This document shows, in pieces, positions 28,105 to 40,891 of a stretch of DNA of 64,000 bases. The notes beneath the pieces are model-generated. The model did no database searches. It was given only the letters and a program-made list of their open reading frames with translations, and was not told the origin of the DNA. Source of the DNA: Dyella sp. SG609. GTDB lineage: Bacteria > Pseudomonadota > Gammaproteobacteria > Xanthomonadales > Rhodanobacteraceae. The position numbers and the translations under genes are program-made. Each line of letters starts with the position of its first letter. The stretch's first letter is position 1. The DNA lies in NCBI RefSeq assembly GCF_012275375.1, contig NZ_JAAZQJ010000008.1:186001-250000 (forward strand). The letters are read 5' to 3'.

Positions 28105-29919
28105 TCAGGCGACCTTGGCGTCGGTTGCGGCGTCGCCGTCGGCCACGACGCGATTGCGGCCACTGCGCTTGGCGCGGTACAGCGCTGCGTCCGCATCGCG
28201 GCACAGCGGCTGCATCGCATAGCCGGAAGTGGTAGTCACCGCCATGCCGATGCTGGCGGACAGCGCCACCACCTGGTCGCCGGCGCCCGCCGGCGTGGCC
28301 TCGATCGTGCGGCGCACGCGTTCGGCCAGCATCAGGCCCTGCTCGCGGCCGCAGTCCAGCAGCAGGATGCCGAACTCCTCGCCGCCGAGGCGGCCGAACA
28401 GGTCGGAGGAACGCAGCAGCGGCTGGCACAGCGAGACGACGTGCTTGAGCATGTCGTCGCCCACCGCATGGCCGTGCGTGTCGTTGATCTGCTTGAAGTG
28501 ATCGAGGTCGATGAACATCAGGCAGGCCGTGCCGTGCTTCTTGTCCAGCAAGTGCAACGCGCGGTCGGCGTCGGCGATGAAGGTCTGGTGGTTGAGGATG
28601 CCGGTGAGGCCATCCACGCAGGAGAGTTTCTTGAAGCGCAGCTGCGAGCGCTTGATGCGGAACAGCCAGAACACGATCGACACCAGCAGGAGCAGCAGCA
28701 TGGCGATATACAGGCGGCTGGTTTCCACCGCCTTGGTGTTCAAGGCCTGCTGCAGGCGCAGGATGCTGTTCTGCTTGGCCAGCGACTCGGTTTCCAGCCG
28801 CTGCACGTGCAGATGCTGCTGGGCCATCTCGTAGGCCAGCGTGCGTGCGCTGACGTCGTTGAGATAGCCCTTGTCCTGCGCGGCGTATTGCTCGTGGTAG
28901 GCCAGCGCGGCGGCGGCGTGGCCCTGGCGCTTTTCCACCTGGTACAGCACTTCGTAGGCCACCATCAGCCATTCGCTGATCTCGCCCTGGTGCGCCATGG
29001 CGATGGCGGCGAGGCCGGCTTTGCGCGCTTCGCCGTCGTTGCCCAGCATGGCCTGCGCCTGCGCGCGCTCGGCCTGCGCGGACAGCATGTGCGGATAGAA
29101 GCGATTGAGTTCGATGGTGGGCGCGACATGGTCGAGCAGGGCCATCGCCTTGGCCGGCTGCTTCTCGTCGATAAACAGGCTGCCCAGCACCAGGCGGATG
29201 CTGTTGGTGGCCACCGGTTGCTGCGCGTCGGTGCAGGCGTCGATGCCGGCCTGCACCTCGGGGCTGGCCGAATGCAGGCGCTTGCCGTTGTACAGCGCGG
29301 CCACCAGCAGGTTGAGCGGCAGGCAGCGGTTCTCGCCGGACGGGATGGCTTCGTCCATCATCCGCGCGTACTTGATCGCCAGGTCGGTCTGGCCGGCCAG
29401 GTCGAGCATCTGCGAGAGATTCATCAGCACCAGGAACCGGGTCATCGGGTCCTTGATCGCCGGCAGCTCGGAAGCCAGCCGGTTGGCCAGGGTGAAGGCC
29501 TCTTCGTAGCGCTGGTTCCAGCCCAGGTTCATCAGCAGCAGCGAGGAAGCGCGCAGGCGGATCGCGTCGTCGCCCGCGTGCTCGATGATGTCGTGCAGTT
29601 CCTGTTCCGACTTGGCGTAGTTGCCCTGGAACATCACTTCCCACGCATCGAGATAGCGCAGGCGCCAGGCATCGCGCGGCGTCAGCGGCGGGGCCTCGCG
29701 GTGCAGGCGCGCCAGCATCTGCACGAAGCGCGGATGGTCCTTGCGCTGCAGGTTCTCGGCCTGGTCGAGGAAGGCCGTGGCGTCGCCGATGGTGGACGCC
29801 GCGGCGGGTTCGGCCGCGATGGCGCCGGGCATGTCGGCATGGCCGGGCTGCGCAAGCGCGCCCAAGGCCAGGACCGCGAGCGCGGTCCAGGTCTTCAGGC
29901 GGTCTGGCAGCCGGGCCAT
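28105..29919 (-). CDS. TPR-containing membrane diguanylate cyclase (GGDEF)
   Basis: 604 aa. A signal-like N-terminus (1-28) leads into about 370 residues of periplasmic helical repeats of TPR type, a coiled-coil stretch (HVQRLETESLAKQNSILRLQ), one membrane span (LYIAMLLLLLVSIVFWLF) and a C-terminal GGDEF domain. The active-site motif is GGEEF (about residue 510), with an intact inhibitory RxxD site (RSSD) five residues before it. It should make cyclic di-GMP from GTP in response to a periplasmic signal and be product-inhibited. It begins 31 bases after the stop of the 88-aa precursor-like gene on the same strand, so co-transcription with the borosin-like genes is possible. Confidence 0.9.
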   Translation of the reverse strand: MARLPDRLKTWTALAVLALGALAQPGHADMPGAIAAEPAAASTIGDATAFLDQAENLQRKDHPRFVQMLARLHREAPPLTPRDAWRLRYLDAWEVMFQGNYAKSEQELHDIIEHAGDDAIRLRASSLLLMNLGWNQRYEEAFTLANRLASELPAIKDPMTRFLVLMNLSQMLDLAGQTDLAIKYARMMDEAIPSGENRCLPLNLLVAALYNGKRLHSASPEVQAGIDACTDAQQPVATNSIRLVLGSLFIDEKQPAKAMALLDHVAPTIELNRFYPHMLSAQAERAQAQAMLGNDGEARKAGLAAIAMAHQGEISEWLMVAYEVLYQVEKRQGHAAAALAYHEQYAAQDKGYLNDVSARTLAYEMAQQHLHVQRLETESLAKQNSILRLQQALNTKAVETSRLYIAMLLLLLVSIVFWLFRIKRSQLRFKKLSCVDGLTGILNHQTFIADADRALHLLDKKHGTACLMFIDLDHFKQINDTHGHAVGDDMLKHVVSLCQPLLRSSDLFGRLGGEEFGILLLDCGREQGLMLAERVRRTIEATPAGAGDQVVALSASIGMAVTTTSGYAMQPLCRDADAALYRAKRSGRNRVVADGDAATDAKVA

Positions 29920-29950
29920 GGCGGCGTCGATTCCGACGCGGGCGCCGTAC

Positions 29951-30217
29951 TTATTCTTCTTCTTCGGGAGACAGCGGCTTCGGCAGATCCTCGGGGAGGT
30001 CTTCCTCCTCGGTGCCCGGAGCCTGCGTGACCTGCGGCGGTTCGGATTTCTGCGCGCCGAGTTCGACGATCAGCGGCGCGCTGTCGCCGGTGCTGGCGGC
30101 CGTCTTCAGCGCCTCGGAAGCCTGCGCTTCCAGCTGTTTCGCCAGTTCGTCGCCCGGTAGGTGGCGCAACGACGCATCGCTGCCAATGGCCTCGAGCAAA
30201 TCGATGGTGTCCATCAT
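29951..30217 (-). CDS. Putative split-borosin precursor peptide
   Basis: 88 aa. Two adjacent ATGs (30217, 30214) follow GAGGGGAG. Residues 1-45 look like a compact helical leader (TIDLLEAIGSDASLRHL, GDELAKQLEAQASEAL), of the kind that binds borosin methyltransferases. A short hydrophobic segment follows (APLIVELGAQ, 47-56), then a disordered Pro/Glu-rich tail (EEEDLPEDLPKPLSPEEEE). It lies downstream of a SonM-like N-methyltransferase gene on the same strand, 179 bases away. By analogy with SonA/SonM of Shewanella, backbone amides in the hydrophobic segment or nearby would be alpha-N-methylated. The core position is inference; without the neighbour this would be an unknown acidic protein. Confidence 0.65.
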   Translation of the reverse strand: MMDTIDLLEAIGSDASLRHLPGDELAKQLEAQASEALKTAASTGDSAPLIVELGAQKSEPPQVTQAPGTEEEDLPEDLPKPLSPEEEE

Positions 30218-30396
30218 GGTTCTCCCCTCAGTCCCCTGTTTACGTTCGTTATGGTGCGGCTGCTTGGTGTCGCACGCCGGCGCGATGGATGCACCGGTCG
30301 GTTTCCTGGCCGTTCGCCGCGCCCCGAAGCGCGGCGTACCGCCGGATCACGCGGGGCGATGAGCCCCCAAAAGCATAAGCGCGCGCCGTGCCGGCA

Positions 30397-31230
30397 TCAT
30401 GCCAGCGCGCTCTCCTTGTCCAAGGCTTCCAGTCGTTCCCGCATGGCCAGGTTGAGTTGCAAGGCCCGTGCCGGCGGCAGCACCACCGTCTCCTCGGAGG
30501 TGACGGACACCTGCGGCAGCTCGCCCAGGGTCACGCGGCGGATGCGCGGCTTCTCGATCGGCAGCGTCGCGCCGCGATAGATGATGACTTCGTGGTCGAG
30601 CGGGTAGTCGCGGTGGAGCAGTTCCACCAGCAGCTCGCGGTACTTCGGGCCGGTGGCGAAGCGGCCGAGCGAGCGGTCGCCGACCAGGCCCACCTGCCAC
30701 AGCACCAGATAACCGGCGTTGTCGATGCGGCGCTCGTAGAACAGCAGCTGGCTGGCTTCGAAATGCTGGCAGCCGTAGCGGCCGGGGTCGATGCCTAAGT
30801 CCGCGTAGAGGCAATCCTCGGCGGAAATGCCCGGCTCCATATGCGCCTGGAAGCCTTCCGCGCGCGCCGTTTCGATCACCTTGTGCGGCGACCACGCGAA
30901 GATGCCCGGATGCCCGTAGAACACGCCGCATACCCGCTTGCCGGCGCGCACCTCGGTCATCATCAGCTCGACCCATTCGCGATAGGTCTTCATGCGCGAC
31001 TTGCCTTCGCGGTAGTACGGCTGAAGGCTGCGCACGTCCGAGTGCATGCGCTGCAGCCACAGCTCCACCACGCCGTCGGAAAGCCCGGCGAACACCACGT
31101 CGGCCTGCTGGATATGGCTGCGCGCGAGCGGCGTGAGATGCGACCCGAGGGTCATCCCCAGGCCGACGCAGGCGAGGCTGCCGCGGCGCGGTTCGGGTTC
31201 GTTGGCGAGTGGTGAAGGCGAGGTCGGCAT
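30397..31230 (-). CDS. Split-borosin-type peptide alpha-N-methyltransferase (SonM-like, tetrapyrrole methylase fold)
   Basis: 277 aa from ATG 31230. The protein has the tetrapyrrole (corrin/porphyrin) methylase fold: an SAM-binding N-terminal strand-loop (GSLACVGLGMTLG, 17-29), the conserved YGHPGIF loop (105-111) and MEPGISAEDCLYADLGIDPG (131-150). As I recall the family, these features and YPLDHEVIIY, LPPARALQLN match SonM, the Shewanella enzyme that methylates backbone amides of a separate precursor, better than CobA/CbiF enzymes. Candidate catalytic residues are Arg79/Tyr83 (SRMKTYREW) and Tyr105. No cobalamin or sirohaem gene is nearby. The 88-aa gene downstream is the expected substrate. 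Confidence 0.8.
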   Translation of the reverse strand: MPTSPSPLANEPEPRRGSLACVGLGMTLGSHLTPLARSHIQQADVVFAGLSDGVVELWLQRMHSDVRSLQPYYREGKSRMKTYREWVELMMTEVRAGKRVCGVFYGHPGIFAWSPHKVIETARAEGFQAHMEPGISAEDCLYADLGIDPGRYGCQHFEASQLLFYERRIDNAGYLVLWQVGLVGDRSLGRFATGPKYRELLVELLHRDYPLDHEVIIYRGATLPIEKPRIRRVTLGELPQVSVTSEETVVLPPARALQLNLAMRERLEALDKESALA

Positions 31231-31387
31231 CGCGTGATAGTAGGGCAGTTTTGTGAGCGCACGCACATCTTCATTTGTGAAAAATGAGGCCTGGCTGTCG
31301 GCACGCTGTCGCTCCGTTGGCACAGAAGATGCCAAGCAGCGCTGTCATACAGGACGGCGCGATCACGACAGCGCTGCCTATGCCGGC

Positions 31388-32308
31388 TCAGCCGACGGTT
31401 CGCACTGCACTGCGGTATGCCTTGGGCGATTGCCCGGTCATGCGTTTGAAGGCGCTGCTGAAAGCGCTTTCGGAGGTATAGCCCAGCGCCCGGGCGATGC
31501 CCGCTACCGGCGTGCTGTGCTCGCGCAGGCTGCGCTCGGCCAGGCGCATCCGCCATTCGGCGAGATAGGCCAGCGGGGTGATGCCGGCCACCGTGCGGAA
31601 ATGCAGCGCGAAGCTGGTGCGCGACATGGCGCAGGCCGCGGCCAGCTCGTCCAGGTGCCAGTCGCGCGCGGGTTCGCCGTGCATCAGGCGCACGGCCGGG
31701 GCGATGCGCGGATCGCCCAGCGCGCGCAGCCAGCCTGCCGGCATGGGGCGCGATGTCTTCAGATGCGCCCGCAATATCTGGATGAAGAGCAACTGCGCCA
31801 GATGCTTCGATACCAGCTGCGTGCCCGGCTGGTCGAGCGCACGTTCTTCCATCAGCTGGTCGAGCAGCCAGCGGAAGTTGCTGGCATGCGGCGACGCGGC
31901 CGGCACGTGGATCCACGGCGGCAGCACGTCCGCCAGCAGCTTGCCGCTGGCCGGGTCGAGCAGCACATGGCCGCCGATATGCGCGAAGTCGCGGCCGTCG
32001 CCCAGCTGCGCGGTGCCGTTGGTGCCGGCAAACACGGCCATCGCATCGATGGGCTCCACGCCGGGTTCGCTGGCCAGCACGAAGGAGCGCGGCGCCGCTA
32101 TCAGCCCGACGTCGCCCGTGTCGAAGCGCAGCGGCGCAGGCTCGCCGTCGATCAGCACCCAGCCATGGCCGCGCACCACGGCGAAGAACTTGATCTTCTC
32201 CGGCGCCGGAAAGCGGATGGCCCAGGCGCCGCCGGCGGTGAAGCCGCCGGTCAGCAGCGATTCGGCGCTGGTGAACTTGAGGATCTCGGAGAAGGGGTCG
32301 GTGCTCAT
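31388..32308 (-). CDS. AraC family transcriptional regulator
   Basis: 306 aa from ATG 32308. The N-terminal cupin_6-type domain (GGAWAIRFPAPEKIKFFAVV, GDVGLIAAPRSFVLAS) is followed by the C-terminal AraC DNA-binding domain (WHLDELAAACAMSRTSFALHF, PVAGIARALGYTSESAFSSAF). Its start lies 103 bases from the divergent reductase gene, which is its likely target. This subgroup typically controls one neighbouring oxidoreductase or efflux gene in response to an aromatic or aldehyde ligand; the actual ligand is not evident. Confidence 0.9.
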   Translation of the reverse strand: MSTDPFSEILKFTSAESLLTGGFTAGGAWAIRFPAPEKIKFFAVVRGHGWVLIDGEPAPLRFDTGDVGLIAAPRSFVLASEPGVEPIDAMAVFAGTNGTAQLGDGRDFAHIGGHVLLDPASGKLLADVLPPWIHVPAASPHASNFRWLLDQLMEERALDQPGTQLVSKHLAQLLFIQILRAHLKTSRPMPAGWLRALGDPRIAPAVRLMHGEPARDWHLDELAAACAMSRTSFALHFRTVAGITPLAYLAEWRMRLAERSLREHSTPVAGIARALGYTSESAFSSAFKRMTGQSPKAYRSAVRTVG

Positions 32309-37107: not shown

Positions 37108-39585
37108 TCAGGCCGGCACCAGCAAGCGTTCGAACTCCACCGCCGGCATCGGCGCGCCGTACAGGAAACCCTGCAGCAGCCGGCAGCCGGCCTGGCGCAG
37201 ATAATCCGCCTGCTCCGGCGTTTCCACGCCTTCGGCCACCACGCTCATCTCCAGGCTTTGCGCCATGGTGATGATGGCGTCGGCGATCGCCGCGCTGTCG
37301 GTATCCGTCGCCACGTCGCGCACGAACGCGCGCGGGATCTTCAGTACGTCGATGGGAAAGTGCTTGAGGTAGGACAGGCTGCTGTAGCCCGTGCCGAAAT
37401 CGTCCAGCGCCAGGCTCACGCCCAGCTCCTTCAGCTGCTGCATCAGCGCGCGGCTGTGGTCGCCGCCGGCCATCACCATGCGCTCGGTCAGTTCCAGCTC
37501 GATCATGCCGGGCGGCAGGCCGCTCTCGCGCAGGATCTCGCGCAGCACGTCGTGGAAGCCCGGCTGCAGGAACTGCGGCGGCGCCACGTTCACCGCGATC
37601 GACACACTGCGGCCGGAACGGTGCCAGGCGGCCGCCTGCTGGCAGGCCTGCTGCAGTGCCCAGCGGCCGAGCGGGCCGATCAGGCCGCTTTCCTCGGCCA
37701 CCGGCACGAACTGGTCGGGGCGGTAGACGTCGTGGCCGTCCACCTGCCAGCGCAGCAGCGCCTCGGCACCGACCACCACGCCGGTGAGCGCGTCCACCTT
37801 CGGCTGGTAATGCAGCTGCAGGTCGCCGCGGCGCATGGCGGTGCGCAGGTCGCGCTCGATGCGCATCTGCGCCGCGGGGCGCTCGGTCATCGCCGCGGTG
37901 AACAGCCGGTAGCTGTTGCGGCCCTGCATCTTGGCTTCGTACATGGCGGTGTCGGCGTGGCGGATCAGCGCCTCGGCGTCGTCCGCATCGTCCGGATACA
38001 GGCTGATGCCGGCGCTGAAGCCCAGCGCCAGCTCGGCCAGCTCGTGCGGCGGGTGCTCGTGCCAGCGGCGCATCAGCAGCTCGCAGGTCTTGGCCGCGTC
38101 GCCGGCGCTGTCCACGTGCGGCAGCACCACCATGAACTCGTCGCCGGCGGTGCGGCTGACGATATGGTCGCCGCCGAGCAGGCCGCGCAGGTGCGCGGCG
38201 AACAGGCGCAGCAGCTGGTCGCCGGTCTGGTGGCCGAGCGAATCGTTGATGTGCTTGAAGTGATCCAGGTTGATGAAGATCAGCGCGGCGCGCCCGTGGC
38301 GGCGGCGCGCCGCGGCGATCACCTGGGCCAGCCGCGCCTGCAGCAGGTGCCGGTTCGGCAGGCCGGTCAGCGTGTCGTGCTGGGCCATGTGCGCCATCTT
38401 CAACACCAGCGCTCGGGTGGCGCTGACGTCGTGGAACACCAGCACGCCGCCGATCACGTTGCCCGCGTGGTCGTGGATGGACGCGGCCGAATCCTCGATC
38501 GGCGTGCGGAAGCCGTTGCGGTGCACCAGCATGGCGTTGCCGCGCAGCTCGACGATGGTGTCGCGGCCGATCGCCTCGCGCAGCGGGTTGCGCAGCAGTT
38601 CGCCGCTGTCGCCGTCGAGCAGGCGGAACACGTCTTCGATCGCGCGGCCCAGCGCCTCGGCGTGGCTCCAGCCGGTCATCGCCTCGGCGATGGGGTTGAG
38701 CGAGGTGACGCGCAGCTGCAGGTCGGTGGTGATCACCGCATCGCCGATCGAGCGCAGGGTGACCTCGGCCAGTTCGCGCTCGCGGAACAGCGCTTCCTCG
38801 TAGGCCTTGCGCTGGCTGATGTCCTGGATCTGCGCCACCGCGTGGAACGGCGTGCCGTCCGGCGCACGCACCAGCGACACGGTCAGCAGCACGTGCACCA
38901 CGTGGCCGTCGCGGTGGAAGTAGCGCTTCTCCAGCTGGTAGGAATCGCGCTTGCCTTCCATCAGCTCGGTGGCCAGCTGGAAGCTCTTGGCCACGTCGTC
39001 GGGGTGGGTGATGTCGCGGATATTGAGCTGCAGCAGTTCCGGCTCGCGGTAGCCCAGCATGTGGCACAGCGCGGCGTTGACGCGCAGCAGGCGGCCATCC
39101 GGCGCGACCAGGCCCATGCCGATGGCGGCATGCTGGAAGGCGCCGAAGAAGCGCTGCTCGCTCTCGCGCAGGCGGGTTTCCAGTGCGTGGCGCTCGGTGA
39201 TGTCGATCAGCACGGTGAAGATGCCGCAGACGGCGCCGTCGGCGTCGTAGTCCGGCTGGAAGCTGCCGTGCACGTAGCAGCGCGACTGGCCAGCGAACAT
39301 CTCGCCTTCGTAGACGGAAGCGTGGCCGCGCAGGGCTTCTTCCAGGCAGGGGCCGGCGCGCTGCAGGCTGGCTTCGTCCAGCACTTCGGCCACGTGGCGG
39401 CCCTGCAGTTGCGCCGGGTCCACGCCCAGCCAGGACTGGTGCGCGGCGTTGGCGAAGCGGATGCGCAGCTCGCGGTCGATGTAGGCGATCAGCGCCGGCG
39501 CGCCGTGCACGACACGAGCGGCCCAATCGGGCTCGGACGACGCCGGCCCGGTCGGTCGATCGGGTTCGATCCGCTGCATGCCCAT
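37108..39585 (-). CDS. PAS-GGDEF-EAL cyclic di-GMP signalling protein
   Basis: 825 aa from ATG 39585 (ATG 39579 or 39627 also possible). Three PAS domains occupy about residues 20-400 ([59 protein letters not shown]), then a GGDEF domain with a degenerate active site (RTAGDEF, Ala for the first Gly) and an EAL domain with GAEALLRW and the metal-binding [13 protein letters not shown]. The EAL part looks competent to hydrolyse cyclic di-GMP. The cyclase part is doubtful and may act as a GTP-sensing regulator. No membrane span is seen, so it is a cytoplasmic redox or ligand sensor. Confidence 0.92.
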
Positions 39586-39727
39586 ACCGCCCGTCCATCC
39601 ACCCCTGTAGGACGCTAGAGATCGCATGATGCGCCAAGTCGCAGCGGGTGGGCAGTAGGCGGCGACCCCGATAAGGTGAAGGAAATGTCTAAGCCGCCGT
39701 ACTTTTCTGAAGTGTGCCTTGCGGGCC

Positions 39728-40891
39728 TCAGTGCAGCGGTTCGGCCGGCGCGCCCAGGCGGCCGGACTCATCCAGCACGATGCGCCCCAGGGCGTGCAGC
39801 TCGGTGGCGATGCCGCTGCGCTCGGCCAGCGCGGCGACCAGCGGACCCAGTGCGCGCGGCTGCAGCGGATAGCCATTGGCCAGCACGCGTGCGCGGCCGT
39901 TCTCGCCGCGCTGGGCCAGGGTCACCGCGATCACGCCCAGGCCCGGCGCCTCATGCGCATGCAGGCGCGCCTCGCCGTAGGCCGGGTCGAGCGCACCGAA
40001 CACTTCCAGCAGATAACCGGGCTCGGCCGCGGTGGCGGTGGCGTCGATCGATTCGAGCGCTTGCGGAATGCGATGGGCATCGAGCAGGGCCACGTACTGG
40101 CGCAGCTCGAACACGATGCCGGCCAGCTCATGCGCGCGCTGTGCCGGCTCGATCGCCTGCGCCGCGGCCCAGTCGGCCGGCGACTGGATCCACACCTTGC
40201 CCTCGGCATAGCGCAGCGCCAGGCCGCGGGCGGTGAGGGTGGTTTCCTCGCGGTAGGGCGTGAGCAGCGCGCATTCCAGCAGCGACCACAGCGCGGCGAG
40301 GTTGACGTGCTCGTACTGCACGCAGGTCATCGCCAGCAGGTCGTTGCGGCTGAGGTACCGCGCATGTTCCAGGCGCACACCCAGCGTGCGCATCAGCCAG
40401 TCCGAGCTGCGCGCGCCGGCTTCGCCGCGGCCGACCAGTTCCACTTCCAGGCGCTCGGCCAGTTCCTCGGCCAGCGCCTCGGGGGCGAGCAGGCTCAGCG
40501 GCAGCAGGCGCATCGGGCCGTCGGCGTAGCCGCGTTCCGGCTCCAGCGGCTGGGCCGGCATGCGGCCGTCGTGGGTGCCGAAGGCGACCACGTTGTCCAG
40601 GTGGCCGCGCGGCACGCGGCGGGCCAGCTCGTCCAGCGTGGCCCAGACGGGAAAGCCGGGGCGCAGCAGTTCCACCGCGTCGAACAGCGCCCCGGCCACG
40701 GCTAGGCGGCACTGCTCCACCTGCGGCACCAGCGCGTGCAGGTCGGCGGCGGCCAGGGCGGCCAGTTCGGCGGCCTCGTCGCGGCTCAGCGTGAGGCGGT
40801 CCGGCGTCTCGCCGGGCGACAGCTCCAGCGCGAGCACGATGGGCAGGGCGACCAGCGACGAGGCTTCCACGTGGGCGAATCCGAACGGCAA
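39728..40891 (-). CDS. Conserved protein of unknown function
   Basis: 387 aa if the TTG at 40891 is used; a GTG at 40870 is an alternative, and no clear ribosome site decides between them. The sequence is regular in composition, cytoplasmic and leucine-rich ([59 protein letters not shown]). No catalytic signature, membrane span or known fold was recognised. It stands between the PAS-GGDEF-EAL gene and the divergent thiolase gene, which gives no functional hint. Codon use and open length leave little doubt that it is a real gene. Confidence 0.65.

Follow-up and report, generated by a model that had tools for sequence, protein, structure and literature searches.

The window analysed here is a stretch of 64,000 nucleotides from the soil bacterium Dyella sp. 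SG609. A 277-aa ORF of the tetrapyrrole-methylase fold (30397..31230) and an 88-aa ORF (29951..30217) lie on its minus strand, both where the initial annotation had placed them, with the smaller one 179 bp downstream of the larger. That annotation described a locus of two genes and overlooked a third. A conserved gene for a predicted diguanylate cyclase (28105..29919, minus strand, 604 aa) begins 31 bp after the stop codon of the 88-aa ORF. The methyltransferase ORF was read from the ATG at 31230, and an alternative TTG start at 31335 would give a protein of 312 aa. A purine-rich stretch was seen by eye immediately 5' of the ATG of the small ORF. A simple consensus search of 29900-31420 found neither promoters nor terminators and was uninformative.

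The 277-aa protein matched Pfam TP_methylase at 80.5 bits (cut-off 27.8) and contains the motifs YGHPGIF, MEPGISAED and YPLDHEV, as had been noted. This general fold would also suit a corrin, porphyrin or sirohaem methylase accompanied by an unrelated or spurious small ORF. In comparison with PDB sequences, the protein matched SonM at E = 4.3e-73 (homology over 251 residues), dbOphMA at 7.7e-51 and OphMA at 5.3e-48, whereas precorrin-2 methylase reached 1.2e-4 and sirohaem synthase 1.6e-3. The NCBIfam corrin and sirohaem models scored at most 22 bits, well under their cut-offs of at least 163. Because the E-values for SonM and OphMA are far better, the enzyme was assigned to the borosin family as the initial annotation had expected, and a corrin or sirohaem identity was rejected on scores, being already refuted by sequence. 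A spurious small ORF is opposed by its conservation next to methyltransferase homologues, and we give this alternative as a whole practically no weight.

In the available text of Miller 2021 (PMC8429565), Tyr58, Arg67 and Tyr71 are important active-site residues of SonM. Their counterparts in the window enzyme are Tyr73, Arg79 and Tyr83, and the equivalents of these residues are conserved in 172, 171 and 171 of 173 aligned sequences, respectively. Judged by its sequence, the 277-aa protein is a SonM-like borosin alpha-N-methyltransferase. Its closest relative among the matches listed is from Dyella marensis, with 94% identity. Three further TP_methylase matches were detected in the genome, all on contigs other than that of the window, and we infer from the match scores that the window enzyme is the only borosin-like one of the genome. 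At another locus (L231:3838-5448), a single ORF of 545 codons carries two methyltransferase domains.

Of 80 loci with a related methyltransferase, 77 also have a relative of the 88-aa ORF, and the contigs of the other three stop less than about 130 bp from the methyltransferase. The expected conservation of the small gene was thus borne out. Between the 88-aa ORF and its relative in D. marensis, the differences fall on 12 third, 4 first and 1 second codon positions. By these comparisons, the methyltransferase ORF and the 88-aa ORF are both real genes. When a profile of 22 precursor-family sequences was searched against the PDB, SonA was the best match (E = 2.2e-4) and aligned without gaps over residues 1-60. 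A profile of 69 sequences again ranked SonA best (E = 5.2e-4), and a distant precursor relative (L234) matched SonA at 7e-16. The PDB search with the single window sequence did not find SonA. Its top matches were designed helical-repeat proteins, which were individually weak (domain E of at least 1.9 in the top match) and were gone when the family profile was used, and they were treated as composition artefacts and rejected as relatives.

The AlphaFold2 model of the precursor contains five helices (residues 4-13, 15-19, 22-32, 35-43 and 47-53) followed by disorder. Searches with this model by Foldseek and VIA-align returned no PDB match and neither support nor exclude kinship. The model helices and the gapless profile match place the predicted leader, or borosin-binding domain, at residues 1-55 (30053..30217, minus strand). 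Profile and model together agree with the separate SonA-like precursor that had been proposed, and the window locus almost certainly holds a borosin enzyme and its precursor.

As described in the available text of PMC8429565, SonA consists of a five-helix leader (1-53), a linker (54-61) and a core (62-71) that is methylated at residues 63 and 65. Since the alignment with SonA puts this core at residues 58-70 of the window precursor, the core (SEPPQVTQAPGTE; 30008..30046, minus strand) should lie near these residues, with a register of about one residue either way. The hydrophobic segment APLIVELG, which had been pointed out, is present at residues 47-54, and it was rejected as core because the last model helix (47-53) and the SonA alignment make it the final helix of the leader together with the leader's end. 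Many precursor relatives carry PQ(I/V/S/A)(T/S)(Q/N)xPG at the core position, and others carry cores like NVCCLLVPA. The latter Cys-rich cores are those of Rhodanobacter-type precursors (L062, L066, L068, L075, L148, L149 and L150), some of which repeat a core-like segment (CCLLVPAQVRCLLVPG). Two further loci (L166 and L168) have no cyclase, and their methyltransferase has one short precursor upstream and two downstream, with cores unlike the PQxxQ type.

The product of 28105-29919 is a predicted diguanylate cyclase, whose GGDEF domain (residues 435-590) scored 138 bits with Pfam and has the motif GGEEF. The N-terminal part comprises a signal-like segment and a TPR-like helical solenoid at about 47-332, and one strong membrane segment follows at about 397-424, with its helix at about 400-424. 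By eye the N-terminal segment resembles a signal peptide, at a score under the threshold used. In the structural model (mean pLDDT 89.6), residues 47-332 form the helix pairs, a long helix runs through the membrane segment, and the GGDEF domain comes last. A structural comparison matched residues 43-366 with APPBP2, a TPR protein (317 residues aligned, Z 24.8, rmsd 4.0), to be read with the caution that scores of helical repeats easily run high. Pfam TPR models did not match the window cyclase, and TPR_12 was above cut-off in one fused relative. Of 195 distinct sensor cyclases, 190 have an intact GGEEF/GGDEF motif. An RxxD site, a place where c-di-GMP can bind, stands five residues before the motif in 130 of the 195. 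The window holds another GGDEF match in a 922-aa protein (37108-39876, minus strand), about 6 kb upstream of the methyltransferase; by eye it has PAS-like and EAL-like parts, and its GGDEF motif reads AGDEF.

The cyclase gene accompanies the pair far beyond the window. A same-strand sensor cyclase was present in 74 of the 80 relative loci, or in 74 of 76 after omission of L064, L081, L087 and L090, whose contigs extend little or not at all beyond the methyltransferase or precursor; it is truly absent from L088 and L097. Among 398 genomes of the order, the enzyme was found in 204 and the sensor in 160, with both in 157 and the sensor alone in 3. The coordinate comparison covered 150 sensor places and 150 enzyme places, a part of those in the order. 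For 119 of the 150 listed sensor places there is a listed enzyme no more than 8 kb away; the sensor is always on the strand of the enzyme and lies downstream in 116. Conversely, 106 of 150 listed enzyme places of the order had a listed sensor nearby by coordinates, and re-reading the remaining 44 with profiles recovered a sensor in 35, which brings the total to 141 of 150 and leaves 9 without one. With 17 GGDEF matches over the 5.13 Mb of the window genome, simple arithmetic gives a chance of about 2% for a same-strand GGDEF gene within 5 kb. In a selected set of 151 enzymes that had sufficient flank, 131 had a cyclase and 20 had none; of 161 distinct methyltransferases, 10 had been omitted for having less than 2.5 kb downstream. 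The loci for this set and for the tail counts given below were not chosen at random, as L118-L147 have no listed methyltransferase nearby, L148-L191 have no listed cyclase and L207-L236 are weaker matches; the counts of 74/76 and 141/150 are free of this choice. The genetic linkage to the TPR-GGDEF cyclase is strong, and we read it as a functional one: the precursor and its enzyme are highly likely to work with the cyclase.

An ordinary natural-product locus could also come to look like this, if the cyclase were a co-transcribed regulator or an inherited neighbour that never touches the peptide. Common descent can keep neighbours together, and type IV borosins without GGDEF exist, the available text of Miller 2021 making no mention of it. 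The cyclase link weakens outside the order: among seven distant loci of the class, L200 has a cyclase, L201 has a weak sensor match and the other five have none. Other neighbours, however, were not kept in this way. Beyond the three families, the most shared neighbour family reached no more than 11 of 81 loci. The AraC-type regulator upstream and the TonB receptor downstream were considered as parts of the module and rejected, since no form shared with the window appeared among the 25 most widespread neighbour families. Gene order also varies among lineages and fusions occur, yet the enzyme, precursor and cyclase remain together, and precursor-cyclase pairs without methyltransferase exist. We therefore regard the peptide and the cyclase as probable functional partners, and consider a mere neighbour unlikely.

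The fusions are found at six loci (L221, L222, L223, L224, L227 and L228), where a single ORF of 829-893 codons combines the sensor, GGDEF and methyltransferase and is preceded by a SonA-like precursor. The methyltransferase part stands directly behind the GGDEF domain and matched SonM at 1.3e-71. In a tree of 152 enzymes the six fused ones form one clade, and the presence of a cyclase requires 8 changes. At the same time, precursors and cyclases were seen together without the enzyme. A listed enzyme was missing near 31 sensor places. At 19 of them a precursor stands directly upstream and the examined stretch contains no enzyme, although two of these 19 (L118 and L131) are less than 2 kb from the contig start and the enzyme may be cut off. 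The other 12 comprise 3 with an enzyme missed by the list and 9 with neither enzyme nor precursor.

One of the 19 pairs is located in the window genome itself, on contig C9 (L117). Its precursor (L117:5582-5869) is a second one of borosin type, with 95 aa, an acidic tail and a predicted core near LMAVQLP, and it is directly upstream of a second TPR-GGDEF cyclase (sensor match from L117:5953) whose sensor is 38% identical to the first. No methyltransferase was found in the 13 kb examined there. Because this second pair has no enzyme of its own and the genome seems to have a single borosin-like TP_methylase, the arrangement suggests that the window enzyme may serve both precursors.

The direction of control between peptide and cyclase can be read in two ways. 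The cyclase or c-di-GMP might regulate peptide methylation. In that case the methyltransferase would be gated or localised by the GGDEF part, and the peptide would have its effect elsewhere. The position of the methyltransferase directly behind the GGDEF domain in the six fusions fits this possibility, and so does the RxxD site of the 130 sensor cyclases. But the cyclases of the order are mostly separate proteins (126 separate versus 6 fused), and the 19 of 31 sensor places with a precursor and no methyltransferase better suit a partnership of precursor and cyclase. Such reverse control appears improbable to us, and we lean slightly towards a peptide that acts on the cyclase.

The acidic Pro/Glu tail of the window precursor (residues 71-88; 29954..30007, minus strand) is present as the initial annotation described and is predicted to be disordered, with a mean pLDDT of 54-56 over the last blocks. 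It had been singled out as a difference from SonA; of 201 distinct precursors, 140 have acidic tails and 61 do not. Precursors were counted as tailed when they had at least 80 aa and at least 7 Asp/Glu after residue 65, and at least 1.5 kb of downstream sequence was required. A cyclase follows directly in 136 of the tailed precursors and not in 4, compared with 22 and 39 of the untailed ones, and the fused-cyclase lineages have short SonA-like precursors. A phylogenetic control of this association yielded only 3 independent pairs on well-supported branches, none of them contrary, and was not significant. In Luteibacter sp. dw_328 (L063:5879-8138), seven tandem precursors follow one methyltransferase; the first six are short-tailed, and the seventh is acidic-tailed and adjoins the cyclase. 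We hypothesise that the acidic tail is linked to the partnership with the cyclase. A 140-aa precursor at L173:6500 has a tail in which a unit like DKDEEEIR is repeated four times.

Taken together, we marginally favour a type-IV-like split borosin that has a dedicated diguanylate cyclase, the peptide being either a regulator of this cyclase or its signal. The SonM-like enzyme would first bind the helical leader of the 88-aa precursor, a step that is strong by homology, and would then methylate backbone amides around residues 58-70. The adjacent TPR-membrane-GGDEF protein could work with the precursor in its modified form or with a peptide released from it, and the acidic tail may have a role in this partnership. 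The methylated peptide would be sensed by the TPR solenoid, which probably lies outside the inner membrane, and c-di-GMP synthesis by the cytoplasmic GGDEF domain would change as a result.

The module has no transporter gene, which could be because backbone N-methylation can favour both protease resistance and membrane passage. In the available text of PMC8429565, backbone N-methylation is said to confer membrane permeability. Against the mechanism, the precursor has no obvious signal peptide, whereas the sensor probably lies outside. The search for a pepsin-type peptidase (PF00026), prompted by shewasin A, which we take to be a borosin protease, gave no match in the window genome and none in 14 control genomes, so that it had no positive control.

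A wider proposal can be put forward more tentatively, as one that we think possible rather than probable. A TPR-type membrane diguanylate cyclase may have a backbone-N-methylated ribosomal peptide as its cognate signal, in a peptide-to-c-di-GMP circuit that would be widespread in Rhodanobacteraceae, Lysobacteraceae-like relatives and Steroidobacter-type bacteria. One methyltransferase could act for several precursor-cyclase pairs, and the methyl groups might let the peptide reach the sensor without a transporter. If this is true, backbone-methylated ribosomal peptides join the signals that control c-di-GMP, and a function is predicted for many borosin loci of soil bacteria that are uncharacterised. 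As of 2021, the available text of PMC8429565 states, the final product was not known for any split-borosin pathway. A conserved and sometimes fused cyclase partner points to a concrete candidate function for split borosins, with c-di-GMP as output, and suggests that the modified peptide has a part in signalling and is not only a natural product.

No paper joining borosin and diguanylate cyclase was found in a search that lay outside the surveys Imani 2022, Cho 2022 and Lee 2024. The literature searched also gave no paper joining RiPP, GGDEF, precursor peptide and methyltransferase, and none that assigns split borosins a signalling role. We make no claim of priority, because the legend of Figure 1 in Xu 2024 (PMC11395268) names 'GGDEF' among the borosin architectures of its type scheme and the link between GGDEF and borosins is therefore partly known. 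The depth of this link, the pairs without methyltransferase and the acidic-tail association are added here, and earlier surveys may report them.

The nearest characterised system is SonM/SonA of Shewanella oneidensis, a type IV split borosin (PMC8429565). Like the window, it has a separate methyltransferase and precursor, the same three active-site residues and a leader of matching length that aligns without gaps to the family profile; the window helices end at residue 53, and in the text available the SonA leader spans 1-53. The window precursor differs from SonA in its core sequence and in the long acidic Pro/Glu tail after the core. The window also has a downstream TPR-GGDEF gene, and neither GGDEF nor diguanylate appears in the available text of Miller 2021. 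The fungal OphMA and dbOphMA belong to the same methyltransferase family (E of about 1e-48 to 1e-51), but carry leader and core on the enzyme itself, in contrast to the separate precursor of the window. The type scheme of Xu 2024 likewise places GGDEF in a borosin architecture, which, as far as its legend tells, is probably the fused form of L221-L224, L227 and L228, whereas the window enzyme, precursor and cyclase are three genes.

For the cyclase, a likeness by description of domains and control only is offered by RcbA/RcbB of Vibrio vulnificus (PMC12282931). RcbB is also a GGDEF protein with an N-terminal TPR domain; its GGDEF domain is kept repressed by the TPR domain, through which RcbA, encoded by the neighbouring gene, relieves the repression. 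Unlike the window precursor, RcbA is itself a TPR protein, and the available text of that study names no methyltransferase. By analogy, RcbA/RcbB may serve as a precedent for a TPR domain that restrains a GGDEF domain until this restraint is lifted by a partner.
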